The notes beneath the pieces were generated by a model. The model was not told where the DNA came from, did no database searches, and saw only the letters and a program-made list of their open reading frames with translations. The position numbers and the translations under genes were made by a program. A stretch of 64,000 nt of DNA from an uncultured Geobacter sp. (GTDB taxonomy: Bacteria; Desulfobacterota; Desulfuromonadia; Geobacterales; CAIOGM01): assembly GCA_903857795.1 (NCBI GenBank), contig CAIOGM010000122.1, forward strand, positions 1-64,000, given 5' to 3'. Each line of letters opens with the position of its first letter. The stretch's first letter is position 1. Of the stretch, positions 14,654 to 63,937 are shown piece by piece.

Positions 14654-14660
14654 GATAATC

Positions 14661-15452
14661 ATGGATATAGCAACAATTATCGGCCTGTTAATGGGCTTTG
14701 GCGCGGTCATAGGCGGGCAGACTCTCGAAGGGGGCAGCATTATGGCCCTAATTCAACCGACTGCAGCCATCATCGTCCTCGGCGGCACCTTCGGCGCCAC
14801 CATTGTCAGCTTCCCCATGAACCACCTCATGCAGGCGGTGAAGGATATCCGGAAGGTCCTCTTCCCCACCCATGCAAGTCCGGAACCGTTGATCAAGGCG
14901 ATCATGGGTTTTGCCTCCAAGGCCCGCAAGAACGGTCTGATCTCCCTGGAACCCGAGGTGCAGAAGACCAAGGACACGTTTCTCAGGAAGGGACTCTCCC
15001 TGGTGGTGGACGGTATCGACCCCCAGAAGCTCAAAGAGACCATGGAGATCGAACTGAACAGCTATGAAGAGCATGCCAAGGGGAGCGCTGAAGTCTTCGA
15101 ATCCGCCGGCGGCTTCGCCCCGACCATCGGCATCATCGGCGCCGTCCTGGGGTTGATCCATGTCATGGAAAACCTCAGTGACAGCTCAAAACTCGGGGGA
15201 GGGATCGCCGTCGCCTTCGTTGCGACCATCTACGGTCTCATGACGGCCAACCTCGTCTGCATCCCGTTCAGCACCAAGCTGAAACAGCGACTCAAGGAAG
15301 AGATCCTGCAGAAGGAGATGATCATCGAAGGGCTCATGGCCATCCAGAACGGCGAGAACCCCCACTTCATCGAGCAGCGGCTCAATTCATTCGTCCAGCA
15401 CACATCTTCGGACAAGAAGGGGCCACCAGGTGGCAAGAAAACAGAAGCATGA
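14661..15452 (+). CDS. motA: flagellar motor stator protein MotA
   Basis: 263 residues with four expected membrane segments (about 4-24, 34-50, 148-170, 182-202). The stator signature GGFAPTIGIIGAVLGLIHVM and FVATIYGLMTANLVCIPF match MotA/PomA/MotP-type ion-channel subunits, and the charged cytoplasmic loop between segments 2 and 3 would contact FliG. With MotB it forms the ion channel that drives rotation. The motB start lies inside its 3' end. Confidence 0.95.
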   Translation: MDIATIIGLLMGFGAVIGGQTLEGGSIMALIQPTAAIIVLGGTFGATIVSFPMNHLMQAVKDIRKVLFPTHASPEPLIKAIMGFASKARKNGLISLEPEVQKTKDTFLRKGLSLVVDGIDPQKLKETMEIELNSYEEHAKGSAEVFESAGGFAPTIGIIGAVLGLIHVMENLSDSSKLGGGIAVAFVATIYGLMTANLVCIPFSTKLKQRLKEEILQKEMIIEGLMAIQNGENPHFIEQRLNSFVQHTSSDKKGPPGGKKTEA

Positions 15453-16224
15453 AAAAGAGGCCAACCACGAGCGGTGGCTGGTCTCCTACGCCGACTTCAT
15501 CACCCTGCTCTTTGCGGTGTTCGTCTGTCTCTACGCCATGTCTCAGGCTGACCAGAGAAAGGTCGAATCACTGGTTGCATCCATGCGGGAATCGTTCGGC
15601 CATGTGAAGACCGGCGCCTCTTCCGAGAAGGTCAACTTGGTGGAGAGCACCGACCTGCGCAAGATCCCTTCGATCAAACCGGAGACGCTGAGTCCCGGCA
15701 AGGGGGGAGAGGACGTCAAGGTCATGAAGAGGAGCAGGTCCCGGGCCGAAGCGAAGGATTTTCAGCAGGCCAAGGCCATTATCGACGCAGCCTTAAAGAC
15801 TTACGGAGCCCAGGATAAGGTCAGCGTACAGGTCACCAAACGGGGGCTGGTGGTGAGTCTGAAGGAGGCGGGATTTTTCGATTCGGGGAGCGCCGACGTC
15901 AAGAACAACTCGCTGCAGCTTCTGGAGTCAGTGGCCAAGGCGTTGGGCCAGTTCAGCAACCCCGTCAGGATAGAGGGGCATACCGACAACATGCCGATCA
16001 ACTCCCATGCCTTCAAGTCAAACTGGGAGCTCTCCACCTCCCGCGCCACCAACATCGTCCATTATTTGGTGGAAAACTATCAGTTCCTCCCGGAAAACAT
16101 CTCGGCGGTCGGCTGCGGAGAGTTCCGCCCCATCGCCGACAACAGCACCGAGGAGGGGAGGCGAAAAAATCGCCGGGTGGACATCGTCCTCCTCTTCAAG
16201 GAGAGCGACGGCGGCGAAACGTAA
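15430..16224 (+). CDS. motB: flagellar motor stator protein MotB
   Basis: 264 residues from a GTG at 15430, overlapping motA by 23 nt, with AAGGGG 6 nt upstream. A single membrane helix (about residues 16-38) contains the ion-binding aspartate D22 (YADFITLL). The C-terminal half is an OmpA-like peptidoglycan-binding domain (EGHTDNMPINSHAFKSNWEL, then STSRA; GRRKNRRVDIVL). It anchors the stator to the wall. Which ion is used cannot be decided here. Confidence 0.95.
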   Translation: MARKQKHEKEANHERWLVSYADFITLLFAVFVCLYAMSQADQRKVESLVASMRESFGHVKTGASSEKVNLVESTDLRKIPSIKPETLSPGKGGEDVKVMKRSRSRAEAKDFQQAKAIIDAALKTYGAQDKVSVQVTKRGLVVSLKEAGFFDSGSADVKNNSLQLLESVAKALGQFSNPVRIEGHTDNMPINSHAFKSNWELSTSRATNIVHYLVENYQFLPENISAVGCGEFRPIADNSTEEGRRKNRRVDIVLLFKESDGGET

Positions 16225-22935: not shown

Positions 22936-22951
22936 AGCAAGAATGGAACCA
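22936..22951 (-). promoter_or_regulatory. putative sigma-54 promoter of fliD
   Basis: Read on the minus strand: TGGTTC-CATTC-TTGCT, against consensus TGGCAC-N5-TTGCW. The invariant GG and GC are exactly 10 nt apart. It would start transcription about 14 nt before the fliD ATG, leaving the AAGGGAG ribosome-binding sequence intact. Confidence 0.5.
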
Positions 22952-31006: not shown

Positions 31007-31918
31007 TTACCTCAGGAGAGAGAGGGCCGCCTGGGGAGTCTGGTTCGCCTGGGACAGGATGGCGGTGCCGGCCTGAGTCAGGATGTTGTTCCGGGTCATG
31101 TTTGCCGTCTCGGAAGCCACATCGACGTCTCTGATGCGGGATTCGGCGGCGCTGGTGTTCTCGACGGCCACCGCCAGGTTGTTGATGGTGGACTGGAGCC
31201 GGTTCTGCGTGGCGCCCAGGTTGGAACGCTGGCTGGAGATACTCTGAATGGCATTATCGATGGCATTCAGTGCGCTCTGAGCGCCGCCCTGAGTACTGAC
31301 CTGAACAACACCTCCGCCGGTACTGGCAAAATTGACGCCGATGGCCTTGGAATCTGCAGACGCAACATCCAGCGTAATCCGGTCCAACGCATTACCTGAA
31401 GTACTTGTGGTTGTATTGGTATCATTCCGCGGGCCGATATGGAAGACCATCGTCCCGGCCCCCGGAGTCGTGGTCACGGAGCCGTCACCGGACATTGTTC
31501 CGTCCAGCAGTTTTTTACCGTTGAACTCGGTGGAACCGGCGATCCGGTCGATTTCACTGGTCAGCTTGTTGAATTCACTCTGGATATAGCCCCGCTCGGT
31601 GCTCCCCACGGTGCCGGTGGCGGACTGCTCGGCCAGTTCCCGCATCCTGACGAGGATGGAACTGGTTTCATTGAGCGCCCCTTCAGCCGTCTGGATGAGG
31701 GAAACGCCGTCGTTGGCGTTACGCGTCGCCTGATTCATACTGCGAATCTGGCCCCGCATGTTCTCCGAAATGGAGAGACCGGCGGCGTCATCGGCCGCGG
31801 TGTTGATGCGGTAGCCCGATGAGAGGCGCTGCATGGATTTCGCGAGTTGGCCCTGCGATACGCTCAAGTTTCTCTGGGCGTTGATCGAAGCCGTGTTGGT
31901 CTGAATTGACATTGCCAT
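31007..31918 (-). CDS. fliC: flagellin (second copy)
   Basis: 303 residues with the conserved flagellin ends: N-terminal SINAQRNLSVSQGQLAKSMQ, RLSSG, TRNANDGVSLIQTAEGALNE, and C-terminal NNILTQAGTAILSQANQTPQ. These D0/D1 helices build the filament; the central variable part is short (about residues 150-215), so the protein is a small flagellin with little surface domain. It is highly similar to the flagellin at 32258 in both terminal parts. AAGGAGG precedes the ATG by 6 nt. No convincing sigma-28 or sigma-54 element was found upstream. Filament proteins of this type are exported via FlhA/FliS and are the expected acceptors of the glycosyltransferases around them. Confidence 0.97.
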   Translation of the reverse strand: MAMSIQTNTASINAQRNLSVSQGQLAKSMQRLSSGYRINTAADDAAGLSISENMRGQIRSMNQATRNANDGVSLIQTAEGALNETSSILVRMRELAEQSATGTVGSTERGYIQSEFNKLTSEIDRIAGSTEFNGKKLLDGTMSGDGSVTTTPGAGTMVFHIGPRNDTNTTTSTSGNALDRITLDVASADSKAIGVNFASTGGGVVQVSTQGGAQSALNAIDNAIQSISSQRSNLGATQNRLQSTINNLAVAVENTSAAESRIRDVDVASETANMTRNNILTQAGTAILSQANQTPQAALSLLR

Positions 31919-32257: not shown

Positions 32258-33172
32258 TTACTTCAGGAGCGAAAGCGCCGCCTGGGGTGTCTGGTTGGCC
32301 TGGGACAGGATGGCGGTGCCGGCCTGGGTCAGGATATTGTTCCGGGTCATGGTGGCGGTCTCCGAAGCCACATCAACGTCTCTGATGCGGGATTCGGCGG
32401 AACTGGTGTTCTCAATGGCCACCGCCAGGTTGTTGATGGTGGACTGGAGCCGGTTCTGGGTGGCGCCCAGGTTGGAACGCTGGCTGGAGATACTCGCGAT
32501 GGCGCTATCGATAGAATTCAGTGCGCTCTGAGCGCCTGCCTGAGTACTGACCTGAACAGAAGTTGTGCTGCCGAAATTAACACCGATGGCCGTAGAACTT
32601 GCAGCCGAAACGTCCAGCGTAACCCGGTCCAACGCATTGCCGGCGGTACTGTTATTGGTATTGCCGATACTGGTATCATTTCTCGGGCCGATATGGAAGA
32701 CCATCGTCCCATTTCCCGGAGTCGTAGTCACGGTGCCGTCGCCGCACATGGTTCCGTCGAGCAGTTTCCTGCCGTTGAACTCGGTGGATCCGGCGATCCG
32801 GTCGATCTCACTGGTCAGCTTGTTGAATTCACTCTGGATGTAGCCACGCTCGGTGCTCCCCACGGTGCCAGTGGCTGACTGCTCGGCCAGTTCCCTCATC
32901 CTGACGAGGATGGAGCTGGTTTCGTTGAGCGCCCCTTCTGCGGTCTGGATCAGGGAGACGCCGTCGTTGGCGTTGCGCGTCGCCTGGTTCATGCTCCGGA
33001 TCTGTCCCCGCATATTTTCGGAGATAGCCAAGCCAGCAGAGTCATCGGCCGCGGTGTTGATCCGGAAACCCGACGAGAGGCGCTGCATGGACTTGCTGAG
33101 AGCCAACTGCGAGGTTGAGAGGTTGCGCTGGGCGTTGAGGGACGAGACGTTGGTCTGAATTGACATGGACAT
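32258..33172 (-). CDS. fliC: flagellin (first copy)
   Basis: 304 residues with the same terminal helices as the gene at 31007 (SLNAQRNLSTSQLALSKSMQ; NDGVSLIQTAEGALNE; NNILTQAGTAILSQANQTPQ). The short central part differs more, and it carries a single cysteine (DGTMCGDG) where the other copy has serine. GGAGG precedes the ATG by 8 nt. A near-perfect sigma-28 promoter lies about 150 nt upstream, making this copy the one most clearly under FliA control. The long leader has several GGA motifs that could bind CsrA, whose gene is in this window. Confidence 0.97.
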   Translation of the reverse strand: MSMSIQTNVSSLNAQRNLSTSQLALSKSMQRLSSGFRINTAADDSAGLAISENMRGQIRSMNQATRNANDGVSLIQTAEGALNETSSILVRMRELAEQSATGTVGSTERGYIQSEFNKLTSEIDRIAGSTEFNGRKLLDGTMCGDGTVTTTPGNGTMVFHIGPRNDTSIGNTNNSTAGNALDRVTLDVSAASSTAIGVNFGSTTSVQVSTQAGAQSALNSIDSAIASISSQRSNLGATQNRLQSTINNLAVAIENTSSAESRIRDVDVASETATMTRNNILTQAGTAILSQANQTPQAALSLLK

Positions 33173-33328: not shown

Positions 33329-33355
33329 TTATCGTCTCCCCAGGTGAAAACTTTA
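33329..33355 (-). promoter_or_regulatory. sigma-28 (FliA) promoter of the first flagellin gene
   Basis: Read on the minus strand: TAAAGTTT, 11 nt, GACGATAA. The -35 element is identical to the sigma-28 consensus and the -10 differs at one base (GCCGATAA); spacing is exact. It leaves a leader of roughly 150 nt. Confidence 0.9.
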
Positions 33356-33389: not shown

Positions 33390-33405
33390 TGGCAAAGAGT
33401 ATGCA
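33390..33405 (+). promoter_or_regulatory. putative sigma-54 promoter of the corrinoid/kinase operon
   Basis: TGGCAA-AGAGT-ATGCA; the invariant GG and GC are 10 nt apart and the -12 element ATGCA is the same as in the flgD promoter at 63922. It lies about 80 nt before the corrinoid protein start at 33485. Differences from TGGCAC-N5-TTGCA: one base in each element. Confidence 0.5.
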
Positions 33406-41624: not shown

Positions 41625-42509
41625 CTATTTGAGATAGTTGAGCAGCGACAGCTGTGAAATCTTGGCGGTGGTGGAGAGGGCCGCCTGATAGGCTGTCTGC
41701 TGATTGGCAAGTTCGCTGTACACTTTCACCACATCGATATTCTGAGTATCCGAGAGAGACTTGCTGATGTTGATGTTGGCGCTGTCCCGGTCCGCGGTGA
41801 CATTATCCAGCCGATTCATGCGTGAACCGGCATCCGAGCGGGCGGAGGTGATCTGCGTCAGCGACGTATCCAGGGTGTTGAGGGTCGCCTCGACCCCGCT
41901 CTGACTGTTGGTGGAGAGCGCGGTGGAGAGTTTCTGCAGCTCGGCGAAGATATCGATCCCCCCCCCTGTCCCCTTCAGCAGCTTCCCCCCCGAGTAGTTG
42001 ATGGCGACATTTGTATTGTCCCCCACATTGATGGAGACGGCGTCCTCGGTGCCGGTAAAGGCGCCGGTGGTGCTGAAGGGAGGGGCGTCGTCCTTGAACC
42101 CGCCGAAGATGTATTTACCCCCCACCTGCGTATTGCCTAACTGCACCATCTGGGCCGTCAACTGCGTCACTTCGTTCACGGCGCCGGCCCGGTCACTGGC
42201 GTTGTAGGTGCCGTTGGCCATCTCCATGGCGATCTCATGAGCCCTGGTCACCACATCTCCCATGGAGGACATGGCGTTGTCCGTCTGCCCCAGCCAGGCG
42301 GTACCGGTGACACTGTTGCGGGCGTACTGATCGTTATCCTTGAGCGTCCCCTTCAGCTGGAGCGTCTTTACCGCGCCGGCCGGGTCGTCCCCCGGGGCGT
42401 TGATCTTCAGCCCCGACGATGCCTGTTGGGAGAGCTTCGTGAGCCGCTCCAGGTTGCTCTGCAGGGTGGCCAGGCTGTTGTTGGCGATACTCTTGTCGGT
42501 GACCCTCAT
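41625..42509 (-). CDS. flgL: hook-filament junction protein FlgL
   Basis: 294 residues with flagellin-like ends (RVTDKSIANNSLATLQSNLE at the start, KVYSELANQQTAYQAALSTT near the end). It is the second of the two adaptor proteins that join hook and filament and is exported by the flagellar system. AAGGAG precedes the ATG. It follows flgK with 11 nt. Confidence 0.95.
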   Translation of the reverse strand: MRVTDKSIANNSLATLQSNLERLTKLSQQASSGLKINAPGDDPAGAVKTLQLKGTLKDNDQYARNSVTGTAWLGQTDNAMSSMGDVVTRAHEIAMEMANGTYNASDRAGAVNEVTQLTAQMVQLGNTQVGGKYIFGGFKDDAPPFSTTGAFTGTEDAVSINVGDNTNVAINYSGGKLLKGTGGGIDIFAELQKLSTALSTNSQSGVEATLNTLDTSLTQITSARSDAGSRMNRLDNVTADRDSANINISKSLSDTQNIDVVKVYSELANQQTAYQAALSTTAKISQLSLLNYLK

Positions 42510-42520
42510 GATCTGTCTCC

Positions 42521-43960
42521 TTAACGCACCATGCCGAGCACGGTATCGATCATATCCGACGCCGTGGTAATCAGCTTGGCGGCGCCTTCATAGGCCTTCT
42601 GATAGGAGAGGAGTTTCATCAACTCCTCGTCCAGCGCCACGCCGAGAGTCGACTCTCTCAGGTTGTCCAGCTGGGTGAGCATGGAACTGCTCTGGGACAC
42701 CGCCTGGGTATTGTTCTGCACCGTGACCCCGACCTTCCCCACCAGGGAGTTGTAGAGCCCCGGCAACGTGGTCTGCGAACCGGAGACGGTGATGGCCTTG
42801 GTCTGCAGAGCGGCCAGGGAGAGGGCATTCACGTTATTACCGGTGGCGCCGGGGAGCGATGCCGCGGCAAGATCGTTGGTGGAGGTGATGCTGACCCCCA
42901 TGATGGAGCTGTAGCCCGAGGTATAGGTTGCCGGCGGAGTCGGGGAAGCGGGGGGGGTAAAGAGATTCAACCCGGTGCCGCCGGTGAGACCGTACCCCGA
43001 CGAGTGGACGCTGTTCACCTCGGTCGCCAGATTGTAGGCCGCCTCGTCCAGGCTCCCCAGGAATCCCGGTATGATCTGATCCCTCACCTGTAGCGTCCCC
43101 CCCAGGGTCCCGGACTTGGTGTCGGCCGCGATGAGGGAGGTGACATCGGTGCCCGGATCGGTGCTGCTGCTCTTCAGGAGGATGGATGAGGCGTTGGGAG
43201 TCACCCCGCCGGTGGTGAGGATGGAGGAGGTGACGCCGCTCACCAGGGTCGGCCCCCCGGAACTGCTCCCCAGGGTCACCGTCACGGTGCCGTCACTCTG
43301 TTCCTGAGTGGAGATGCCGACCTTCTGGGAGATACTCTTCAGCAGCAGATCGCGGCTGTCGCGCAGCTGGTTGGCGCTCCCCCCCCCGGTCTCGATGGAT
43401 TTGATCTGGGCGTTGTAGTCGGCAATCTGCTTGAGATTGGTGGTGATGCCGGTGGTAAGAGACGGCAGGGAGTTGTTGGCCTGGAGCAGCTGATCGTTCA
43501 GCCCCGTGCTGATCCGGTGAAAATTGTCGACCACACTCTGGCTCTTGTCCAGCACCGCCTGCCGTTCGGTGGTCCCCTGGGGGTTCACGGAGAGGTCCTG
43601 CCAGGCGGTGAAAAACTCCTGGAGGGACGAGGAGAGGCCGGTGTTGGCGGTCTCATTGAACAGCGGTTCTACCGTGGCCAGGGCGCTCTGCAGGGCGCTC
43701 TGGTTGCCGTTGAAGCCGCTCTCACCCAGGATCTGGGTCTGCAGGTAGTTGTCCTGAGCCCGTTGCACCGAAGCGACATTGACCCCGTTCCCCGTGAAGA
43801 AGCGGGGATCGATGGTTCCGGCGCTTGATTCCAGGTTGACGCTCTGTCGCGAATAGCCGGGGGTATTGACGTTGGAGATGTTCTGCCCCGTCACGTCAAT
43901 GGCGGTCTTTTGGGCCATCAGAGCCTTGCTGCCGATATCGAGAATGGTAGAAATGCTCAT
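42521..43960 (-). CDS. flgK: hook-filament junction protein FlgK
   Basis: 479 residues; N-terminal rod-family motif (ALMAQKTAIDVTGQNISNVN, TPGYSRQ) and C-terminal LLSYQKAYEGAAKLITTASD are typical. First hook-associated protein. It begins one base after the FlgN-like stop codon, and GGGAG precedes the ATG. Confidence 0.97.
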   Translation of the reverse strand: MSISTILDIGSKALMAQKTAIDVTGQNISNVNTPGYSRQSVNLESSAGTIDPRFFTGNGVNVASVQRAQDNYLQTQILGESGFNGNQSALQSALATVEPLFNETANTGLSSSLQEFFTAWQDLSVNPQGTTERQAVLDKSQSVVDNFHRISTGLNDQLLQANNSLPSLTTGITTNLKQIADYNAQIKSIETGGGSANQLRDSRDLLLKSISQKVGISTQEQSDGTVTVTLGSSSGGPTLVSGVTSSILTTGGVTPNASSILLKSSSTDPGTDVTSLIAADTKSGTLGGTLQVRDQIIPGFLGSLDEAAYNLATEVNSVHSSGYGLTGGTGLNLFTPPASPTPPATYTSGYSSIMGVSITSTNDLAAASLPGATGNNVNALSLAALQTKAITVSGSQTTLPGLYNSLVGKVGVTVQNNTQAVSQSSSMLTQLDNLRESTLGVALDEELMKLLSYQKAYEGAAKLITTASDMIDTVLGMVR

Positions 43961-44458
43961 CTAGATCTCCCGACTGAGAAAACTCATTCCCATGGAACCG
44001 GCGGCGAGACGTCCTCGGGCGCCATACACATCGCCCCCCCCCAGGAGGCCTCCGATGAGCGACAGGGAGCGCTGGATCAATGCCAGTGAACGGGAGAGGA
44101 GCCTCCGGTTCAGCTCCTGCTGCCGCCCCAGAGAGCCGGCCAGGAGCAGCAGCCGCCGTTGCAGCGGCACGAGCCTCTCCTTCTCGGAGTCAGAGGCGGA
44201 ACCGATCAGGAGAGAGAGGGTGATCTCCTTGTCTATCCCCCGCTCGGCGCCGAGCGACTCCATGAGCCGATGGCACTCTTCGGTCAGCCGCGCAAGCCGG
44301 GAGGTGACCTCTCCCTTGCACCGGTTGGACTCTTCCATGGAGACGGAGTTCATGTCGATGATCCGGCTCTGCTCCTCTTCCAGGGAGCAGGACAGCTCTT
44401 CCATGAGGCGCTCCTTGGACTCAAGCAGCGCCAATAACCTGACCATATTATCTGACAT
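43961..44458 (-). CDS. flgN: FlgN-like chaperone of FlgK/FlgL
   Basis: 165 residues, strongly helical, in the normal FlgN position between flgM and flgK. It opens with LLALLESKERLMEELSCSLE and ends with the glycine-rich tail (YGARGRLAAGSMG) seen in FlgN homologues. The chaperone delivers FlgK and FlgL to the export gate. Sequence conservation in this family is low; identification rests on size, pattern and place. Confidence 0.8.
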   Translation of the reverse strand: MSDNMVRLLALLESKERLMEELSCSLEEEQSRIIDMNSVSMEESNRCKGEVTSRLARLTEECHRLMESLGAERGIDKEITLSLLIGSASDSEKERLVPLQRRLLLLAGSLGRQQELNRRLLSRSLALIQRSLSLIGGLLGGGDVYGARGRLAAGSMGMSFLSREI

Positions 44459-44756
44459 TGAACGCTCTCCAGTTATCCAGCATCTTTCCGGCGACTGCCT
44501 CGGAAGCCACCTGGTATGAACCGTCGGAGAGCTGCTGCCTGATCTGGGAGACCTTCTCGCCGGAAGAGTCCGGCGGCTGCGGCATCAGCGTCTTCAATTT
44601 TTCCACCTTCTCCCTGCTCCGCGATAGATTGACCCGGTCGGCGCCGGAAGCAGCCGCGCCGGTGGTGGTGTTGGAAGAGGAGTCCCCCTTCTTGGCGATG
44701 CTTTCGGCGGTGGACTGCACCAGCGGCGGGAGGAGCTGATTATTTGTTATTTTCAT
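44448..44756 (-). CDS. flgM: anti-sigma-28 factor FlgM
   Basis: 102 residues. The C-terminal helices (KVSQIRQQLSDGSYQVASEA, VAGKML) are the sigma-binding part of FlgM; the N-terminal half is low-complexity and probably disordered (SNTTTGAAASGADRVNLSRS). FlgM holds FliA inactive until exported through the finished hook. It overlaps flgJ by 17 nt and flgN by 11 nt. Confidence 0.9.
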   Translation of the reverse strand: MKITNNQLLPPLVQSTAESIAKKGDSSSNTTTGAAASGADRVNLSRSREKVEKLKTLMPQPPDSSGEKVSQIRQQLSDGSYQVASEAVAGKMLDNWRAFNVR

Positions 44757-45156
44757 GGGTAACTCCGGTTAGCTCGCTGGGGTATCGGCCGTCATTTCCG
44801 GCGCCGCTCCGGCTCGCGCGGCTGCTTGCCACATGAGGAGCGAGCTGCTTGTCCAGCATCGTTGACATCCCTATTCCGCCATGCTCGGTGATGATCCGTG
44901 CGTACTCCTGATCCAGCATGGAGTGAAACATCTCTTCGCCTTGGCCACCGCCGGTGATCGAATCCTTCCCCACCGTGTCCCTCATGGATTTGAGCATCAT
45001 GCCGACAAACAGCCCCTCAAACTCCCGGGCCACCTTCTTGGCCGCCAGCTCATCCTTGCTACGGGGCGCCGGAGCGCCGGATTTCACCACGCTGTCCGCC
45101 TTGAGGGACCCGGCGGCGTACTGCAGACTCTCCATGCTCCCGCTCTTGAGTTCCAT
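44740..45156 (-). CDS. flgJ: rod-binding protein FlgJ (N-terminal domain only)
   Basis: 138 residues: the FlgJ rod-binding domain (AAKKVAREFEGLFVGMMLKS; GEEMFHSMLDQEYARIITEH) without the C-terminal muramidase domain of enteric FlgJ. Single-domain forms are normal in many lineages; the muramidase must come from elsewhere. Confidence 0.9.
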   Translation of the reverse strand: MELKSGSMESLQYAAGSLKADSVVKSGAPAPRSKDELAAKKVAREFEGLFVGMMLKSMRDTVGKDSITGGGQGEEMFHSMLDQEYARIITEHGGIGMSTMLDKQLAPHVASSRASRSGAGNDGRYPSELTGVTHENNK

Positions 45157-45203
45157 ACCTATTACTCTCTCCTATCGACAGCTTAGGGCAAAACTTTAAG
45201 GAG

Positions 45204-49369: not shown

Positions 49370-49386
49370 TGCAAGAACCTAACCGG
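49370..49386 (-). promoter_or_regulatory. putative sigma-54 promoter of the flgF operon
   Basis: Read on the minus strand: CGGTTAGGTTCTTGCA, with GG and GC 10 nt apart and a consensus TTGCA -12 element; the -24 element is less good than TGGCAC. Expected start of transcription is about 50 nt before flgF. Confidence 0.45.
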
Positions 49387-49459
49387 ATACGCGGGAATCG
49401 GGAAGAATGTGGCAGAAACGTGGGGGGAAGCGGAAATTTTCCTGAAACACGTGAATAGT

Positions 49460-49700
49460 GAGTCTAAAAACGGCACTTGAGACACGGAGACACGGAGAAA
49501 ATCAGGTAATGCATATGGGTGTCATCCTGAGCGACAGCGAAGGATCTGCTTCCGCCTGAACAGCAGATCCTTCACTTCGTTCAGGATGACAAACTGAGTT
49601 GTAGTGTTGTACCTCGATTGGCCTCAGAGTGAACTATACGAAACTGTGAGAGATTATTCTCCGTGCCTGCGTGGTGGACTGTTTTTTCGAGGTTTATTCG
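49460..49700. repeat. nested inverted repeats between fliA and flgF
   Basis: Two known-looking dispersed repeats are nested. Outer: GAGACACGGAGACACGGAGAAAA (about 49479-49501) against TTCTCCGTGCCTGCGTGGTG (about 49657-49676). Inner: GTCATCCTGAGCGACAGCGA at 49521 paired with TCGTTCAGGATGAC ending at 49590. No gene is supported in 49306-49745. Confidence 0.8.
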
Positions 49701-49709
49701 GATTCAAAA

Positions 49710-49740
49710 ACATGACAGCTCTGTCAATTTTTTTTCCGCG
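49710..49740. terminator. bidirectional terminator-like hairpin after fliA
   Basis: TGACAG-CT-CTGTCA (49713-49726) flanked by T-rich tracts on both strands, 20 nt after the fliA stop. It is a plausible end of the fliL-fliA operon, though the stem is short. Confidence 0.45.
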
Positions 49741-49745: not shown

Positions 49746-50501
49746 TCAATCGTAGTGCGGTTTCATCTTTGATCTGAGCCGGACCACCGCCTGGCTGTGC
49801 AGCTGGGAGACCCGCGACTCGGTAAGGCCGAGGATCTCGCCGATGTCCTTGAGCTTGAGCTCCTCATAGTAGTAGAGGGTGACAACAATCCGCTCCTTCT
49901 CCGGCAGGATATCGATACAGCCGGCCAGGGAGTCGATGAGCTGCCGATACTGGAGCTGCGCCTGGGGATTGAGCGCGGCGTTGTCCGCCACCATATCCAG
50001 GAGAGTCACCAGGCTCCCGTCATCATCCTCCATGGATTCGTTGAGGCTGACAAAGGAGAAGGTATGCACCTCTTCCAGAATCCGGTAGTACTCCTCCAGA
50101 TCCACCTCCATGGCGGCGGCGACCTCCTCGCCGGAGGGATCGCGCCCCAGCTTCTGACAGAGGCGGGCGAACTCCCGCTCCAGCCGCTTATACTTTTCCC
50201 GTACCGACCGGGAAAGCCAATCCTGAGAGCGGAGCTCATCGAGGATCGTCCCCTTGATCCGTTGTTCGGCGAAGGTCTTGAAGAGAATCCCCCTGGCCGG
50301 CTCGAACCGTTCGGCGGAGGAGATGAGTCCCATCACCGCGGCGCTCATAAGTTCATCCTCATCGATATGGGGGGGGAGATGCGCCGCCATCCGTTTGACG
50401 ATGTACTTGGCCAACGGCAGATGCTCGATGATCAGTGCGTCACGGATGGCAAGGGAGCTCCGCTGGGACTCCTCGGCATAGCCTCTCAACGCAGGATTCA
50501 T
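49746..50501 (-). CDS. fliA: flagellar sigma factor FliA (sigma-28)
   Basis: 251 residues with sigma-70 region 2 ([60 protein letters not shown]), region 3 and region 4 ([20 protein letters not shown]) in the compact FliA form. It directs transcription from TAAAGTTT-N11-GCCGATAA promoters; two are visible here (14320 and 33329). FlgM at 44448 is its inhibitor. It starts in an ATGA overlap with flhG. Confidence 0.97.
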
Positions 50502-51430: not shown

Positions 51431-53166
51431 GGTGTCATCTCCCCGAGAACAAGATCGGCGACCCGCTTGGGAGTCGCGACCAGTAGGTCCTCCGGCACTC
51501 TCTGGCCGGTGGTGAAGTAGGAAAGGGGCACCCTGTTCTTCAGATGCATGTTGATGATACAGCCGAAACTCTCGCTCTCATCCAGCTTGGTGAAGAGCAC
51601 CTTCCCCACCGGGAGAATGCTGAACCGGGCGAAGATCTGCTCCAGCTCCCGGTCCCGGGTGGTCGCCGCCAGACAGAGATGGGTCTCGATCTCCGGATTA
51701 ACCTCCAGAAACTCCTTCATCTCCAGGAGCCGCTCCTGGTCCCGGGGGTTACGGCCGGAGGTGTCGATGAAGATCAGCTGCTTGTCGCTGTTGGCGTCGA
51801 TGGCAGCGGCCAGCTCGGCGGGGCTCTCGGCCACGGCGAAGGGGAGCCCCATGATGGCGGCATACGCCTTCAGCTGATCCACGGCGCCGATGCGGTAGGT
51901 ATCGGTGGTGATGATGGAGACCCGAACCCGGTGCTTTACCGCAAGCGCCGCCAGCTTGGCGATGGTCGTGGTCTTTCCCACCCCGGTGGGGCCGACAAAA
52001 GCCATGATGCGCGGGGAGTCATTCTTCAGAGCCACCTGCTTGGCGCAGACCACGCCGGCCATGATCGCCTCGCGCAGTCGCTCGCGGAGCAGTTCGTGGC
52101 TTTCGCCAGCCAGCGGCGCCCCCCTGAGCGGCGCCAGGAGCAGTTCGATCTCCTCTTCCCCTACCCCGTTGGTGCGGAGCAGTTCCCCGAAGCTCTCCGC
52201 CTGCTCCTGAACCAGAGGAACAACCGTCGCTGTTTTCACGGGAGGCTCCACGTCAGCGGTCGGTTCCAGGTTGAGGAACCGCTGCAGGGCCACCTTCAGA
52301 TCATCGGCCTCCGAGCAGTGGTGGTGTGCCGGACGGTTTTCTCCGGCATCGGGTTTCCACTGGGTCTGCCGTCCCGCCGCCGGGGCGCCGATCGCCACCC
52401 CTGAAAACGTGGGGAACTCACCGGCGCTCTTCCCCTCGCGCAACCCCGACGGGGCGCCGGAACCGGCGGCAGGAAGGGGCTTGAAGGCGGCGGGTCTGGC
52501 CGTCCCCGACCCGTTGGCGAGGGCCAACAGCTGTTTCAACTCGTCCAGATCCCGCCGTCCGGCGGAGAGCTCTCTCCGCTCCACGGGCGGGACAGCCGCG
52601 CTCTCCTGCTCCTTGCGGCTCCCCATGGATGCCAGGAGAATCTTTTTCAGCTCTTCGATGTCGCCGCGAAGCTTTTCGGTGGCTGCGGAGTCGGGAACCG
52701 GCTTGCCCGGTGAGCCCCCTTTCTCCCCCTCCCCCGCACGGATCAGATACTGCTTCAGCTCTTCAACCCCGAAGCGGGGATCAACGGGATTCACCGGAGA
52801 GTCTGATGGTTTGCGCGCCGCCGGGAACGGCTCAACCTTCTCTTCCGGCGCGGAGAGTACTTCGACCCGGGAGCGGAGCTCCTTGAGCTCCCGGGCCAGG
52901 GGGGCCAGCATGGAGTTCTGGAACTCTTCCCTGGTGTTGGTCTGGCGGGCCGGCTCTTTCGGCGGCTCCGGCACGGGATAGTCGGCCCGGGTGGGGCGGC
53001 TGTCCAGGAGCGCGGTGACCTCGTAGTACGGCTTGGCGAAAAAGGAAAAGAGCCCCTTGCGCCGCAGCTTCTTGGAGGTAAGGATCATGGCGTCGGGGCC
53101 GAACTCGGCCTTGACCAGCCGGAGCGCCTCCGCCATATCCTTAGCCTGAAAGGTTTTAATTTGCAT
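51427..53166 (-). CDS. flhF: SRP-type GTPase FlhF with long linker
   Basis: 579 residues. N-terminal B domain ([34 protein letters not shown]), then a long Pro/Ser/Gly/Glu-rich linker (about 60-310) with repeated EELK and DELK stretches, then the NG domain (P-loop [17 protein letters not shown] near residue 391; [25 protein letters not shown]). FlhF sets the position of the flagellar base. It is longer than most FlhF (about 400-450), the excess being the linker. It overlaps flhA by 11 nt. Confidence 0.95.
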
Positions 53167-55249
53167 TGAGACTCACCACTCCCAAGGATTGAATCTTGAT
53201 ATTCGGCGGGACCTCGCTGTGCGACAGCACCACCAGGTTCGGCAGAAAGCGCTCCGTAAGCTTTTTAATGTGACGTCTGATGGAAGGTGAGGCGATCAGC
53301 ACCGGGTTAGTCCCCGTGACATTGAATTTTTCCATTTCATGACGCAGGCTCAGCAGAATCTTCTGCACGATGGCCGGCTCACACGCCAGGTAGCTCCCCT
53401 GATCGTTGGACTGGACCCCGTCGATGACCGCCTCCTCCACGCTCCGGTCGAGGCTCAACAGACAGAGGGTATCGTCGTCGGATTTGTACTGCTCGACGAT
53501 GCTTCTCCCCAGCCCCTGGCGGACGAACTCCGTCAACATCTCCGGGTCTTTGGTGATCCCCCCGTAATCGGCCAGGGTCTCCATGATGCTCCGGAGGTCG
53601 CGAATAGAGGTCCCTTCACGGAGCAGGTTCCGGACGACCCGCAGGACCGTGCCGATGGAGAGGATCGATGGGACCAGCTCTTCCACCACCTTGGGACAGG
53701 TAGTGGCCAGATTGTCCATGAGCTGCTGCAACTCCTGACGTCCCACCAGCTCATGGGAGTATTTTTTGATGGTCTCGCCGATATGCGTGGCGACCACGGT
53801 GGTGTTGTCCACCACGGTGTAGCCGCAGAGCTGGGCATGCTCCTTGTCGGCGCCACGGATCCAGACGGCGGGAAGCCCGAAGACCGGTTCGGTGGTCCGC
53901 GCCCCTTCGACCTCACCGGTGGTGGCCCCGGAATCCATGGCCAGAAACTGGCCGGTCAGCTCGCCCCCGCCGACCTTTGCCCCCTTTATGAGGATGCTGT
54001 ATTCGTAGGGACGCAGCTGCAGATTATCATGAATATGAATCGGAGGGACTATAAAACCCATCTTCTGGGCGTACTGACGGCGGATATTCCTGATCCGATC
54101 CAGCAGTTCTCCCTCCTGGGACTCGTCCACCAGCGGCACCAGGGCGTACCCCACTTCCAGCTCCAGCATCTCCAGCGGCTTGATGGAACGGATCTGGTCC
54201 CCCCCCTCTTCCCCTTCGGCTGGGCCGTCCATGAGCTGCGATTCATCCTCCCCCTCAATCTTCTCCTTGGCCACCCGACCGGCCAGGTACGCCCCCCCGG
54301 CGAGGGTAAAAAAGGCGAGGTGAGGCAGTCCCGGCAGCATACCGAAGCAGACAAGGATGCCGCAGAGGGTGTAACAGGCCCGGGGATAGTAGAGGAACTG
54401 ACCACTGATCTCGCGGCCGAAGTTGTTCTCATCGGCGGAGCGGGTAACGATGATGCCGCCGGCGGTGGAGATGATGAGGGCGGGAATCTGGGCCATGAGC
54501 CCCTCCCCAACCGTCAGCAGGCTGTAGTTGGCCAGCGCCGTGTCAAACGGCATCCCCTGCTGCCAGACCCCGATGACAAAGCCACCGATCAGGTTGATCA
54601 GCATGATCAGGATCCCGGCGACGGCGTCTCCCCGGACGAACTTGCTGGCGCCGTCCATGGAGCCGTAGAATTCCGCCTCACGGGAGATCTTCAGCCGCCG
54701 GGCCTTGGCCTCCTTGTCGGTGATGGAACCGGAGGAGAGGTCGGCGTCGATGGCCATCTGCTTGCCGGGCATGGCGTCCAGGGTGAAGCGCGCGGCCACT
54801 TCGGCCACGCGACCGGCGCCCTTGGTGATGACCACGAAGTTGATGATGACCAGGATGAGAAAGAGCACCGCGCCGACCACGTAGTTGCCGCCAACCACGA
54901 ACTGCCCGAAGGACTTGATGACCGCACCGGCCGCCTCCGGCCCCTCATTGCCGTGGAGCAGGATGAGCCGGGTCGAGGCGATGTTGAGGGCCAGGCGGAA
55001 CAGGGTGGTCACCAGGAGCACGGAAGGAAATACGGAAAAATCGAGTGGTTGGGTGGTATAAAGACAGACCAGCAGGATGGCGAGGGCAATGGTTACGTTG
55101 GCGGCCAGGAAGACATCCAGCATGAAGGCGGGAAGCGGGATCACCATGAGCCCCAGCACCCCTACCAGCGCCAGTGCCATGATGACATCGGAGTTCTTTT
55201 TCAGCATCGAAGAATCGAACCCCTGAGACGGAACCGCCAGATCTGCCAT
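53156..55249 (-). CDS. flhA: flagellar export gate protein FlhA
   Basis: 697 residues from the ATG at 55249 with GGGAG 8 nt upstream. The N-terminal half holds about eight membrane segments and the conserved cytoplasmic FHIPEP-type loop region (FPSVLLVTTLFRLALNIAST; RFTLDAMPGKQMAIDADLSS). The C-terminal about 350 residues form the cytoplasmic ring that docks chaperone-substrate pairs. The gap to the hemerythrin gene (about 550 nt, filled with repeats) separates it from flhB. Confidence 0.97.
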   Translation of the reverse strand: MADLAVPSQGFDSSMLKKNSDVIMALALVGVLGLMVIPLPAFMLDVFLAANVTIALAILLVCLYTTQPLDFSVFPSVLLVTTLFRLALNIASTRLILLHGNEGPEAAGAVIKSFGQFVVGGNYVVGAVLFLILVIINFVVITKGAGRVAEVAARFTLDAMPGKQMAIDADLSSGSITDKEAKARRLKISREAEFYGSMDGASKFVRGDAVAGILIMLINLIGGFVIGVWQQGMPFDTALANYSLLTVGEGLMAQIPALIISTAGGIIVTRSADENNFGREISGQFLYYPRACYTLCGILVCFGMLPGLPHLAFFTLAGGAYLAGRVAKEKIEGEDESQLMDGPAEGEEGGDQIRSIKPLEMLELEVGYALVPLVDESQEGELLDRIRNIRRQYAQKMGFIVPPIHIHDNLQLRPYEYSILIKGAKVGGGELTGQFLAMDSGATTGEVEGARTTEPVFGLPAVWIRGADKEHAQLCGYTVVDNTTVVATHIGETIKKYSHELVGRQELQQLMDNLATTCPKVVEELVPSILSIGTVLRVVRNLLREGTSIRDLRSIMETLADYGGITKDPEMLTEFVRQGLGRSIVEQYKSDDDTLCLLSLDRSVEEAVIDGVQSNDQGSYLACEPAIVQKILLSLRHEMEKFNVTGTNPVLIASPSIRRHIKKLTERFLPNLVVLSHSEVPPNIKIQSLGVVSLNAN

Positions 55250-55797
55250 CGAAACCACTCCCGTATATCAATAAAAAAATCCGTCCGTTATGGTGGACTG
55301 CAACCGTTGTGCCACTTGGCGCGACGAAACAAGGGAGAAAGCCGTAGTCCACCACGGAGGCACGGAGACACGGAGAAAAATAGTCATATACAACAGTCTG
55401 TTGCACCGTTGCGACCTGTACCTTCGATCTAAAAAAGTCGGGGTGAAATTATTTTGAAAACGGCAGTTCAAATAACACTGAGCAACGGAGCAACCGAGGA
55501 ATCAAGACCTTACGTCAAGAGAGTTTTTTTGCAACAAGGTGAGTCGTTGAAAATATTTTCTCAATGAATTTCGCCCGGATTCCACTCCGTTGCTCAGTTG
55601 CTCCGTGTTTCAAGTGCTCTTCCAAGGATTATACGGCGGAGTTTCTCTTTGAGTTCTCCATGTCTCCGTCTCTCCGTGGTTCAAATGCCGCTTGAGGGAT
55701 GGGATTTTTGTGCGAGACGGTAATTTGACACGGTTTCGTACGACTGCGGGAGGGGCCAAGGTTTTGACCTGTCGGCATGAAGAGAGGAAAAGAAGCG
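55250..55797. repeat. gene-free stretch with two inverted repeat pairs
   Basis: Outer pair: CCACGGAGGCACGGAGACAC (about 55351-55370) against CATGTCTCCGTCTCTCCGTG (about 55659-55678). Inner pair: CTGAGCAACGGAGCAACCGA (55479-55498) against CCGTTGCTCAGTTGCTCCGT (55587-55606). Both resemble dispersed bacterial repeats. No gene or clear promoter for flhA was found in it. Confidence 0.75.
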
Positions 55798-56202
55798 CTA
55801 ACTTCGCCGGGAGAGGTAGGAGGCGAACTCCTTGTCAGAGACGCGGATATGTTTTATGAACCAGAGAATCAGGAGCCGCTTGGCGACCATGATATGTCTC
55901 GAGTTGGTATCGTCTCCACGCACATCGGCCTGGAGCCGGGTGAGATCATCCAGGAACGTGCGATGAGCAATTTTGTGCTCGGCAAGTTCAGGGTACCGTG
56001 AGCCGGCCATATAATCCTCTTCATCCCAGAAGTGCTGCTGGGTATACCGTTCCAGGAAGAGGAGAAGCTCCGTCAGCACTCCCAGGGCGACCCCCTGGTC
56101 GAAGGCGTCGGAGAACGCATCGAAGCGGCTGAATATCTCCTTATGTTGGATATCCACCACCTCGATGCCGGTGGCCAGATCGTCCTGCCAGGTAATCGCC
56201 AT
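55798..56202 (-). CDS. bacteriohemerythrin
   Basis: 134 residues, a single four-helix hemerythrin domain. All seven diiron ligands are present: H20, H57, E61 (HxxxE), H76, H80 (HxxxH), H118 and D123 (HxxxxD). Such proteins bind O2 reversibly, for storage, delivery or sensing. It starts 33 nt after the flhB stop and so is probably co-transcribed with the flagellar export genes, which is unusual and suggests oxygen-linked control or protection of motility. Confidence 0.95.
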   Translation of the reverse strand: MAITWQDDLATGIEVVDIQHKEIFSRFDAFSDAFDQGVALGVLTELLLFLERYTQQHFWDEEDYMAGSRYPELAEHKIAHRTFLDDLTRLQADVRGDDTNSRHIMVAKRLLILWFIKHIRVSDKEFASYLSRRS

Positions 56203-60959: not shown

Positions 60960-61472
60960 TTACTGAACCACGAAATCGGTGAAAAACACCTGAGTTACCT
61001 TGCCGCGGGGAAAGATCCGGACCGCCGAGGTCATGATCTCCTGCCTGAGACGGGTCTTGCCGGGGAGATCCTGAACGTCGGCCAGGGTCTTGGAGGTGAG
61101 GAGCATGAGAATCGAATCCCTGAGTTTGGGGAGGTAGGGATCGAACTCGGCCTTCACCTCGGGTCCGGCCGCGATGACCTCGAACTCCAGCTTGACCTTC
61201 AGGTAGCGGACATCCGTGTTATCGCGAATATTGACAACAAACGGCTCCACGGGATAGAGGGCTGTCGCCTCATGTTTTTTGCTCGATGACTCCGCCTTCT
61301 TCCCCCCGGGTTGGTCAGCCGCCTCCCCTGCGGTGCTGTTCAGATAAAAAGCGACGCCGCCGGCGATACAGGCCAACGCCACCAGAATCGCGGTTCCGAT
61401 GATGATCAGCTTCTTCTTCCCCCCCTCCGGCTTTTCAACAGACTCTTCTTCATGCTCTTCGCCCTTGGCCAT
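60960..61472 (-). CDS. fliL: flagellar basal body protein FliL
   Basis: 170 residues: charged N-terminus, one membrane helix (about 22-47, IIIGTAILVALACIAGGVAF), then a periplasmic domain (TALYPVEPFVVNIRDNTDVR; IMTSAVRIFPRGKVTQVFFT). FliL supports the stator. First gene of the operon reaching to fliA, with a consensus sigma-54 promoter 85 nt upstream. Confidence 0.95.
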   Translation of the reverse strand: MAKGEEHEEESVEKPEGGKKKLIIIGTAILVALACIAGGVAFYLNSTAGEAADQPGGKKAESSSKKHEATALYPVEPFVVNIRDNTDVRYLKVKLEFEVIAAGPEVKAEFDPYLPKLRDSILMLLTSKTLADVQDLPGKTRLRQEIMTSAVRIFPRGKVTQVFFTDFVVQ

Positions 61473-61556: not shown

Positions 61557-61572
61557 TGCAACAGAAGTGCCA
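61557..61572 (-). promoter_or_regulatory. consensus sigma-54 promoter of the fliL operon
   Basis: Read on the minus strand: TGGCAC-TTCTG-TTGCA, identical to the consensus TGGCAC-N5-TTGCW at every fixed position. Expected transcription start about 73 nt before fliL. Binding sites for an activator were not identified. Confidence 0.85.
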
Positions 61573-61744
61573 GAGTTGCCGATGTGCTGCAAATAGATTT
61601 GCGGGGGAGGTGATTACTCCTCTTCCCTTGCGAATGCACCATTGAAGCAGGTGGAGCTAACCGGCTACGCCACTTTTTATGAGGAGGAGATAACAGAATC
61701 GGCAGGGAGGTGAAGTCAGTGTTTTGACAATGAGTGGAGAGATC

Positions 61745-61771
61745 AAAAAAAGGGCGGCTCGGAAGCCGCCC
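61745..61771 (-). terminator. Rho-independent terminator of the flgD-flgE operon
   Basis: Read on the minus strand: GGGCGGCT-TCCG-AGCCGCCC (8-bp stem, stable TCCG-type loop) followed by seven T, 31 nt after the flgE stop. Confidence 0.92.
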
Positions 61772-61801
61772 CTGGTAAGGGTACTCACTGTCTCAGAAAA
61801 A

Positions 61802-62638
61802 TTACCGTACCATCTGGATCGCGTCGTTGGTCAGCTGGTCGTTGACGGTAATGGTTTTGGAGTTGGCCGAATAAGCTCGCTGGGTGACGATCATGTTGAC
61901 CATCTCCGCCGCCATGTCCACATTGCTCGACTCCAGGGAGTTGGCAACAATTTTTTCCGTCGGGGACAACCCCGCGCCTGCGAGGTTGGCGTAGACGAGA
62001 GGAGTGCCCGAGGTGGTGCTGGAGTTATAGAGAGATCCGCCCCCTTTCTGCAGCTCCGTGGGGACTTGGACCCTGACGAGACCGATTCTGCCGGAGCCCG
62101 TTACCGGAGCCAAGATAGTGGTGCCGGTGGTGTCAACAGCGGTGATCTTGCCGGTGGAGTCGATTCCGGTAATCCTGCCGAATGTCGCCGGATTATAGCT
62201 TAGCCCCAATCCGGCATCATCCAGCACATTTTTTCCATCGGGATTGACCAGGTTACCCAATGCGTCCAGATTAAAAGCCCCGGCCCTGGTCAATTGAGCG
62301 GCAGCAGGGAGGGTAACTGGAGCAGGGCCTCCTGTCGCCGTGAGATTGGCGACTGCGAAGAAGAGATTGTCCCCTTGAAGCGCCACATCGCTGACGTTAG
62401 CCGTTGTCTGGAGGGAGCCGCCAAAAAACTGATTCTCCACCTTCTGGACCTGGGTGCCGAGTCCGACCTGGGAGTTGTTGTGTCCGATATTCTGGGAGAG
62501 GAGATCGGAGAAGAGGGTGCGGGCGGCCTTGTACCCGGTGGTGTTGACGTTGGCGATGTTGTTGCTGATCACGCCCATGGCTTCGCTCTGGGCCTTCATT
62601 CCATTGACGCCGGTAAACAGTGCGGATGTGATGCTCAT
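61802..62638 (-). CDS. flgE: flagellar hook protein FlgE, short form
   Basis: 278 residues: N-terminal rod/hook motif (SALFTGVNGMKAQSEAMGVI, SNNIANVNTTGYKAARTLF), middle GLGTQVQKVENQFFGGSLQT, and C-terminal SLESSNVDMAAEMVNMIVTQ, RAYSANSKTI. The C-terminal motif and the location after flgD and the flagellar operon protein point to FlgE, but the length is well under the usual 400 or more, so the outer hook domains are small or absent. A FlgF/G-like rod protein is the alternative; those are already encoded at 47745-49305. Confidence 0.8.
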   Translation of the reverse strand: MSITSALFTGVNGMKAQSEAMGVISNNIANVNTTGYKAARTLFSDLLSQNIGHNNSQVGLGTQVQKVENQFFGGSLQTTANVSDVALQGDNLFFAVANLTATGGPAPVTLPAAAQLTRAGAFNLDALGNLVNPDGKNVLDDAGLGLSYNPATFGRITGIDSTGKITAVDTTGTTILAPVTGSGRIGLVRVQVPTELQKGGGSLYNSSTTSGTPLVYANLAGAGLSPTEKIVANSLESSNVDMAAEMVNMIVTQRAYSANSKTITVNDQLTNDAIQMVR

Positions 62639-62832
62639 GATATGCCTCCTTACGGCAAATTAGTAGCGGGATACCTCGGTCGGTCGGTACCCCCGGGCTT
62701 CCTTCTGGAGGTCCAGCCCGTTAAGTTCTGGTGTAAAGTCGGGGTTCTAGGTTCTAGGTTCTGGGTTCGATGTTCTGGGTTCGGGTTAGCTGCCAATTGT
62801 AAATTATTAATTGTTAATTAGTCCATTGCTTG
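62639..62832. repeat. gap with GGTTCTAGGTTCTGGGTTC direct repeats
   Basis: The stretch 62739-62787 is a run of imperfect 7-10-nt units (GGTTCTA, GGTTCTG, GGTTCGATGTTCT), similar to the run at about 30090-30120. No gene or promoter is recognised. Confidence 0.6.
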
Positions 62833-63216
62833 TCAAATGACTGCCACTGAATCGATGTTGGTGATGACACTGCCAACCATACTCTTCCGGTCCATCGCCG
62901 TAATCACCGTCCGATTTGCCACACTGACCACGAAGGCTGTATCCCCCTGCATGATGAGTGATTCTCTCCCCCCCTTTTTCGCCACACTCTCCATGGCGCC
63001 AGCAAGACTCTTGAGGTCTGACTCGCTGAGGGTTATCCCCCGGGTTCGAAGCCGCTCCTGTGCATGCTGTGAAAACTTGATCCCCTCTGCCGGAAGTTTT
63101 GTATCCAGGATCTTGGCAAAGGGTGACGCCACCCCCGAAACAGCACTCTTGGATTCTACCGGTTTCCTTGATGGCTGGATTACGAGTGGATCGGGGAAAA
63201 AAACCTTGTCGATCAC
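62833..63216 (-). CDS. flagellar operon protein (TIGR02530-type)
   Basis: 127 residues with a GTG start. The core (GIKFSQHAQERLRTRGITLS, ESDLKSLAGAMESVAKKGGR; VVSVANRTVITAMDRKSMVG) matches the small protein of unknown role that sits between flgD and flgE in many flagellar loci. It lies 6 nt after flgD. Confidence 0.85.
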   Translation of the reverse strand: MIDKVFFPDPLVIQPSRKPVESKSAVSGVASPFAKILDTKLPAEGIKFSQHAQERLRTRGITLSESDLKSLAGAMESVAKKGGRESLIMQGDTAFVVSVANRTVITAMDRKSMVGSVITNIDSVAVI

Positions 63217-63222
63217 ATCATA

Positions 63223-63870
63223 TCACCCCCCTACCCCTATGACGTTGGCCAACGGCACGTTCCCCCCGGCACTCTGCAGCACCGGTGAACCTTGATTCAT
63301 CGTCACTCCGGTCACGGCTCTCTTGACAAGGGAAGTCCCGTCGAACGTACTCCCATAACTATTGACCCCGGTGACGGAGAACGTGTACGCTCCGGAAGCT
63401 GCCTGGGCGCCGGTACTATCCAACCCATCCCATGTCATGCTCCCGTTTCCGGTTGCCGCACTCCCTCCAGTCAGCACCCGGACGGTGCTTCCGGCGCTGT
63501 TCTTAATCGTCACCTTAACCGAGTCCGCCGCACTTCCGAGATTGTAATTGACTTGCGAAGCCGAACCCGAAGCCAGCTGAATATCCGATCCTTGGGCGGT
63601 GATCGTCTTGCCGATATACGACACTGCCGTCAGATTTGACTGTGCGGTCAGCAGATTCGTCAGATTGGTATTGGCATTGTACGCCTGCTCAACCTGGGTA
63701 AGCTGGGCCATCTGCGCCACCATCTGCGTACTGTCGGTCGGGTTCATCGGATCCTGATTTTGCAACTGCGTGATAAACAGCTTCATGAAGTCGTCTTTGT
63801 TGAGACCGGTCGTCTTCTTCATATATGCCGCAGCGGCAGAGGTATCATTTGTAACTGTTGAAATAGCCAT
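63223..63870 (-). CDS. flgD: hook capping protein FlgD
   Basis: 215 residues from the ATG at 63870 with AAAGGAGG upstream. The N-terminal capping segment (LNKDDFMKLFITQLQNQDPM, NPTDSTQMVAQMAQLTQVEQ) is diagnostic. The C-terminal FlgD Ig-like and Tudor-like parts follow (VRVLTGGSAATGNGSMTWDG). It caps the growing hook. A sigma-54-type promoter lies 52 nt upstream. Confidence 0.97.
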   Translation of the reverse strand: MAISTVTNDTSAAAAYMKKTTGLNKDDFMKLFITQLQNQDPMNPTDSTQMVAQMAQLTQVEQAYNANTNLTNLLTAQSNLTAVSYIGKTITAQGSDIQLASGSASQVNYNLGSAADSVKVTIKNSAGSTVRVLTGGSAATGNGSMTWDGLDSTGAQAASGAYTFSVTGVNSYGSTFDGTSLVKRAVTGVTMNQGSPVLQSAGGNVPLANVIGVGG

Positions 63871-63921
63871 ACATCTCACCTCCTTTCTTTTTGTAATCGA
63901 GAGACCTTATGCTATTCCTTT

Positions 63922-63937
63922 TGCATCAGTAGTGCCA
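63922..63937 (-). promoter_or_regulatory. sigma-54 promoter of the flgD operon
   Basis: Read on the minus strand: TGGCAC-TACTG-ATGCA. The -24 element is consensus, spacing is exact (GG and GC 10 nt apart), and only one base of the -12 element (TTGCA) differs. It lies about 50 nt before flgD. Confidence 0.75.

Follow-up and report, generated by a model that had tools for sequence, protein, structure and literature searches.

In Geobacter sulfurreducens, RpoN (sigma-54) promoters have been reported at the fliA operon, which scored highest, and at fliL and flgJ (PMC2725144), and sigma-28 sites have been placed at fliC in three Geobacter species, with 127–160 nt from the predicted start to the start codon (PMC2577667). 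FgrM, an RpoN-dependent activator, is needed for flagella (PMC8844916). In Vibrio cholerae and Pseudomonas aeruginosa FlgM depends on FliA, and the motor components of V. cholerae are late (PMC3930126). Each of these papers is cited from its accessible sections; in those of a further one (PMC7064773) Geobacter goes unmentioned. Here we compare with these systems the flagellar region of an uncultured Geobacter sp. (genome G000; 4.05 Mb in 179 contigs) and its candidate sigma-54 and sigma-28 promoters. The stretch analysed, called the window below, comprises bases 1–64000 of contig C122 (65,862 bases).

The window very probably encodes a two-sigma flagellar hierarchy of the ordinary type, laid out as printed for Geobacter, and it adds one more member to an arrangement already described. 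An activator encoded elsewhere (FgrM in Geobacter), together with sigma-54 polymerase, would start the flgD, fliL, and flhA units, which would provide the basal body, the export gate, and FliA (sigma-28). FliA would then start a flagellin gene, flbD-motAB, and flgJ-flgM-flgN-flgK-flgL. As flgM and a further flgM on another contig both lie behind a sigma-28 element, FliA would increase the amount of the protein that inhibits it, a negative feedback known in Vibrio and Pseudomonas. An earlier note on this DNA had read a two-tier sigma-54/sigma-28 code from the letters. All of the sites it listed are present, with unequal strengths, and the predicted order of sigma-54 followed by sigma-28 is supported. 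It overlooked the best sigma-54 site (55299, before flhA) and the second-best sigma-28 site (45172, before flgJ).

Promoter elements in the window

The following elements and genes carry this reading.

55299-55314, minus strand: sigma-54 element before flhA, TGGCACAACGGTTGCA; perfect; 18.7 bits, P < 0.0001; best sigma-54 site of the window
53156-55258, minus strand: flhA (TIGR01398)
49746-50501, minus strand: fliA, encoding sigma-28, in the run behind flhA (TIGR02479)
61557-61572, minus strand: sigma-54 element before fliL, TGGCACTTCTGTTGCA; perfect match to TGGCACN5TTGCW; 17.7 bits, P = 0.0001
60960-61472, minus strand: fliL, which opens the fliL-fliM run of export and switch genes (family search)
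63922-63937, minus strand: sigma-54 element before flgD, TGGCACTACTGATGCA; one mismatch; 14.5 bits, P = 0.0012
63223-63879, minus strand: flgD (NCBIfam FlgD models)
33329-33355, minus strand: sigma-28 element before flagellin gene 1 (fliC1); one mismatch; 23.3 bits, P < 0.0001
32258-33172, minus strand: flagellin gene 1 (flagellin models)
14320-14346, plus strand: sigma-28 element before flbD-motA-motB; third-best matrix match; 13.5 bits, P = 0.0020
14372-16224, plus strand: flbD with a MotA-type and a MotB-type stator gene (PF06289; MotA/MotB-type models)

Elements were sought with the sigma-54 pattern TGGCACN5TTGCW, in which GG and GC were invariant, and with a sigma-28 pattern of the type TAAAGTTT-N11-GCCGATAA; each class was also scored with a matrix. 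For each of 32 genes, the highest score within roughly 255 bp upstream was compared with 20,000 simulated sequences (64 tests, P values uncorrected). With up to two mismatches, the sigma-54 pattern matched the window 26 times against 26.1 expected from shuffles. Since this is no enrichment, a loose match proves nothing, and we therefore used strict matches, the simulated controls for each gene, and conservation. Perfect sigma-54 matches number eight across the genome (three for the reversed-pattern control), and two of the eight are in the window. The sigma-28 pattern gave 30 genome-wide matches with up to three mismatches versus 20 for its control; four have two mismatches or fewer, two of them in the window, and just two, before fliC1 and the second flgM, have a single mismatch. 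The flbD element, for which conserved TAAAG and CCGA boxes 11 nt apart were the criterion, goes undetected in this search even with three mismatches allowed.

Family searches named FlgD, the TIGR02530 protein, FliL, FliM, FlhB, bacteriohemerythrin, FlhA, FliA, FlgF, FlgM, FlgL, FliD, two flagellins, and the MotA/MotB-type proteins; Pfam models named FlbD, FlgN, and again FlgM.

For conservation, we fetched and scored the flagellar surroundings of 41 flhA-bearing genomes chosen across families f1–f4. FlhA is present in 95 and FliM in 97 of the 117 genomes searched in the order. The thresholds (11.5 and 11.4 bits, 99 per cent) come from simulated regions of 210 bp, and the main scan covered up to 450 bp. 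That scan excluded genes whose match started beyond query residue 60, so that 31 of 39 fetched fliL loci and 22 of 24 flgD loci were scored. A 200-bp scan, excluding genes with a match starting beyond residue 45 or with less than 60 bp upstream, gave 29/41 for flhA, 16/30 for fliL, 17/40 for flgJ, 7/16 for flbD, 4/5 for fliC, and 2/41 for flgF. Ten operon-internal genes (flgL, flgK, flgN, flgM, flgI, flgA, flgG, fliA, flhF, and motA) served as controls, and only one of their 333 upstream regions exceeded the 99 per cent threshold for sigma-54.

The flhA element exceeds the threshold in 29/41 relatives, including all 24 from f1–f3, each with at least 16.3 bits, and 5/17 from f4. In the other 12 f4 genomes the best sigma-54 match ends 37–62 bp upstream, and in 10 of these it reads CGGCAY...TGCA. 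Because this element heads the run that contains fliA, FliA would fall in the sigma-54 tier. The earlier note had placed it there too, and the placement stands by way of a site missing from its list. The fliL element, which that note had called perfect, is confirmed as strong and is over the threshold in 17/31 relatives: all 16 from f1–f3 plus G052, which is filed under f4, yet has an FlhA nearer to the window's (80 per cent) than those of other f4 members are. Sigma-54 sites before fliL and before the flhA...fliA run match the accessible description of G. sulfurreducens (PMC2725144). The flgD site, likewise strong and rightly listed, reaches the threshold in 2/22 relatives, both congeners; a sigma-54 site of flgD's own, here and in these two, is unlike what is described for G. 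sulfurreducens in the same text.

Among sigma-28 elements, the one before fliC1 is strong and ends 156 bp upstream of the gene, as far out as the sites reported for Geobacter fliC (PMC2577667, in part); 5/6 fliC genes in five relatives exceed the threshold. The element before flbD-motAB is of moderate strength, and 8/16 relatives carry one within 250 bp. This conservation of fliC, and of half of the flbD cases, supports the earlier note's assignment of the stator genes and one flagellin to a predicted sigma-28 tier. Its likening of the late tier to enteric bacteria needs adjusting: Vibrio and Pseudomonas are closer, with a sigma-54 middle tier and, below it, a FliA-dependent late tier that comprises FlgM, flagellin(s), and, for Vibrio, motor components (PMC3930126, accessible sections).

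Three of the 16 flbD regions carry a sigma-54 element instead of a sigma-28 element before flbD-motA, all from genus g16 (L067 of G072, L045 of G096, and L079 of G098). A change of tier of the stator genes is possible in this genus.

At both flhA and fliL the −12 box of the sigma-54 site is GTTGCA; the six other perfect matches of the genome end in TTGCT. Across 17 genomes, the flhA or fliL promoters account for 32 of the 59 matches to TGGCAYNNNNGTTGCA (a hand count from coordinates), compared with one of the 150 matches to TGGCAYNNNNNTTGCT that were listed out of 179 counted. This concentration may come from nothing more than the inheritance of two promoters. We considered whether the GTTGCA box is shared by flagellar sigma-54 sites generally and restricted it to flhA and fliL, because the relatives' sites at a FlgB-like gene have, for the most part, endings such as TTTTGCT.

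FlgM and the flgJ operon

The second-best sigma-28 element of the window lies between flgI and flgJ, at the head of a five-gene run.

45172-45198, minus strand: sigma-28 element heading flgJ-flgM-flgN-flgK-flgL; two mismatches; 21.0 bits, P < 0.0001
44740-45156, minus strand: flgJ (TIGR02541 match, below cut-off)
44448-44756, minus strand: flgM (TIGR03824, over cut-off; PF04316, 46.3 bits)
43961-44458, minus strand: flgN (PF05130)
42521-43960, minus strand: flgK (named by reading and position)
41625-42509, minus strand: flgL (TIGR02550, over cut-off)

Over the threshold in 17/40 relatives, this element has a patchy distribution (2/2 in f1, 3/3 in g16, and 12/17 in f4). Only 15 nt separate the end of its −10 box from the flgJ ATG, and a sigma-28 transcript would therefore have almost no leader on flgJ; the promoter would mainly serve flgM, flgN, flgK, and flgL. 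The element departs from G. sulfurreducens, where a sigma-54 promoter is described at flgJ (PMC2725144, in part).

The second flgM of the genome is on contig C70 (match at C70:824-991, minus strand; locus L148, G000:C70:1-3000). A sigma-28 element with a single mismatch (C70:1213-1239, minus strand) ends 125 bp before this gene, which encodes a FlgM of 96 amino acids. With 52.7 bits for PF04316, the C70 protein, like that of the window, exceeds the curated cut-off of 25. By domain, both copies are predicted anti-sigma-28 factors, which would bind FliA and be exported. In the open-access literature searched, we found no publication on two flgM genes in one genome for this group.

At least one FlgM is present in 95 of the 117 genomes. 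From the list for the order we chose 31 flgM genes outside the flgJ-flgK neighbourhood, one of them (G006) about 11 kb from fliM, and scored them with spacers of 10–12 nt. A sigma-28 element above the 99 per cent null of 13.1 bits precedes 25 of the 31. The six below it belong to G001, G003 (two), and G002, all of the window's genus, to G048, and to G026 (one of two scored). The pattern of sigma-28 elements at flgM genes outside the operon is thus strong across the order, and within the genus the window's genome alone has it. G002 retains FlgM, and the searches for FlhA and FliM found neither there.

One tentative possibility is that the usual anti-sigma-28 factor of the order is this extra-operon, sigma-28-driven flgM, to which some lineages, including that of the window, would add an flgM inside flgJ-flgM-flgN-flgK-flgL behind a promoter that has switched between sigma-54 and sigma-28, so that two differently timed supplies of FlgM set the late wave. 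Should FlgM indeed come mostly from sigma-28 transcription, and from two genes, the late wave would be self-limiting. The promoter class of the flgJ operon and of flbD-motAB appears to differ between related genera, and these predicted differences offer a natural series for studying how genes move between tiers.

Alternatives and counter-evidence

Two further sites from the earlier list are weaker.

49370-49385, minus strand: weak sigma-54-like element before flgF, CGGTTAGGTTCTTGCA; GG and GC present, rest of the −24 box poor
22936-22951, minus strand: marginal sigma-54 element before fliD; two mismatches; 9.0 bits, P = 0.035
20794-22911, minus strand: fliD (FliD models)

The chance is close to even, though somewhat below it, that some of the weaker sites (flgF, fliD, and flbD) are accidental and that their genes depend on read-through or a different promoter. 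The flgF site scores 4.9 bits (P = 0.22), no better than chance, is not among the sigma-54 pattern matches with up to two mismatches, and reaches the threshold in only 2/41 relatives. Its GG and GC are nevertheless retained in the window, G001, G003, and G052. A sigma-28-like match (11.9 bits, P = 0.0062) also lies before fliD, at −183. Against an accident at fliD, all three relatives scored have a sigma-54 site by score (one at 318 bp upstream), and in two of the three a strong one lies within 200 bp, ending 13 bp before the gene; the recurrence of the flbD element in half of the relatives speaks for that site as well. The earlier note had counted flgF and fliD among the sigma-54 genes: the sites are there, and as separate promoters they are weak.

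A second alternative, which we consider unlikely, is that FlgM belongs mainly to the sigma-54 tier, with read-through from the flhA and flgF promoters reaching flgJ-flgM and the element at 45172 minor or unused. The genes are closely packed on one strand, no minus-strand terminator-like site is listed between flgI and flgJ (in a scan no richer than shuffles), and the flgJ of G. sulfurreducens has a sigma-54 promoter. Set against this are the 21.0 bits at 45172 and its two boxes, which are kept despite an altered spacer in the window, G001, G003, and G052. The best sigma-54 match before flgJ in the window scores 1.5 bits, and 0/40 relatives reach the threshold. We therefore depart from the earlier note, which had made FlgM a product of the sigma-54 tier: a sigma-28 element, retained by both congeners examined, precedes the operon, and another precedes the second flgM. 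Transcripts started at sigma-54 promoters may also read through and contribute FlgM. That loose consensus searching produced all of the matches, as the unenriched count of loose sigma-54 matches might suggest, has next to no chance of being correct, with strict matches rare genome-wide, scores above simulated sequence, and conservation across families at flhA and fliL.

Other results join the flgF and fliD scores in weighing against the two-tier layout, in part or as a whole. Both matrices were drawn up from consensus frequencies and were not trained on mapped starts. For sigma-28, the operon-internal control genes exceeded the 99 per cent threshold in 10/333 regions, about three times the 1 per cent expected. 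The fliL element is missing from 14/15 f4 genomes (all except G052), and the flgJ sigma-28 element from all 12 f2 genomes outside g16 and all six from f3. The sigma-54 promoter of G. sulfurreducens flgJ was found by primer extension (PMC2725144, in part). Four extra-operon flgM genes of three congeners (G001, G003, and G002) lack a sigma-28 element within 250 bp. On the supporting side, flgE and fliL are separated by a hairpin that resembles a terminator and has a T run (61773-61750); the terminator scan as a whole found 13 sites versus 15.6 in shuffles, no excess. The last point concerns the activator.

The earlier note had set the master tier on sigma-54, which the window does not demonstrate: the genome has 31 matches to PF00158, and none of them is on contig C122. 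The search for the activator looked for an enhancer-binding protein that a flagellated relative also has and that genomes lacking flhA do not. It covered the PF00158 matches of G000, G038, G005, G052, G002, and G007, with sequence comparison among G000, G038, G002, and G007. By the final comparison, none of 27 reading frames, picked by motif from the 31 matches, combined a reciprocal best match in the flagellated G038 with the lack of one in both G002 and G007, so the activator was not singled out. G002 may be merely incomplete (92 per cent). A protein corresponding to Geobacter FgrM, as described in the accessible part of PMC8844916, was not identified in this genome by the PF00158 comparison. 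Unlike V. cholerae and P. aeruginosa, as far as the accessible sections of PMC3930126 describe them, no master of FlrA/FleQ type and no pair of FlrBC type was identified here.

One candidate, L142, paired as reciprocal best match with a G038 protein but with none from G002, a genome that lacks an flhA match. It was dropped, as matches with E ≤ 1e-110 occur in 110/117 genomes, including flhA-less ones, and G007, also without flhA, has its reciprocal best match. Two other enhancer-binding proteins, L126 and L140, are 100 and 99.8 per cent identical to G002 proteins, compared with about 71–92 per cent for the other reciprocal best matches; this near-identity would reflect recent transfer or contamination.

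Neighbouring genes and minor observations

Three further genes belong to the flagellar region.

62833-63216, minus strand: TIGR02530 family flagellar protein (family search)
61802-62638, minus strand: FlgE-like hook protein gene (named by reading and position, without a family search)
31007-31918, minus strand: flagellin gene 2 (flagellin models)

Upstream of flagellin gene 2 there is no convincing element (sigma-28, 7.9 bits, P = 0.057; sigma-54, 3.8 bits). CsrA- and FliW-like frames, named by reading alone, lie downstream of flgL, and csrA scores 9.3 bits for sigma-28 (P = 0.027). The gene at 33389 scores 11.9 bits for sigma-28 (P = 0.0065) only because its upstream region overlaps the fliC1 element on the opposite strand. 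A sigma-54-like site (33390-33405, plus strand; 14.8 bits) sits at the start of a gene for a B12-binding protein, which is followed by genes for a URO-D family protein and a histidine kinase, divergent from the flagellin gene.

Within the flagellar export run, a bacteriohemerythrin gene (55798-56202, minus strand) lies between flhB and flhA. Long intergenic stretches with repeat-like sequence occur at about 49400-49740 (fliA/flgF) and 55320-55790 (hemerythrin/flhA). Elsewhere in the genome, a sigma-28 match with three mismatches precedes L031, whose product resembles a methyl-accepting chemotaxis protein, and one with two mismatches precedes L012, a frame of 346 amino acids (both by reading alone); these are possible other late genes. 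In relatives, the flagellar region also contains, in an upstream position, a gene for a PAS-like sensor (named by reading); its element is of sigma-54 type in g16 (L267, L272) and of sigma-28 type in other genera (L266, L274, L154).

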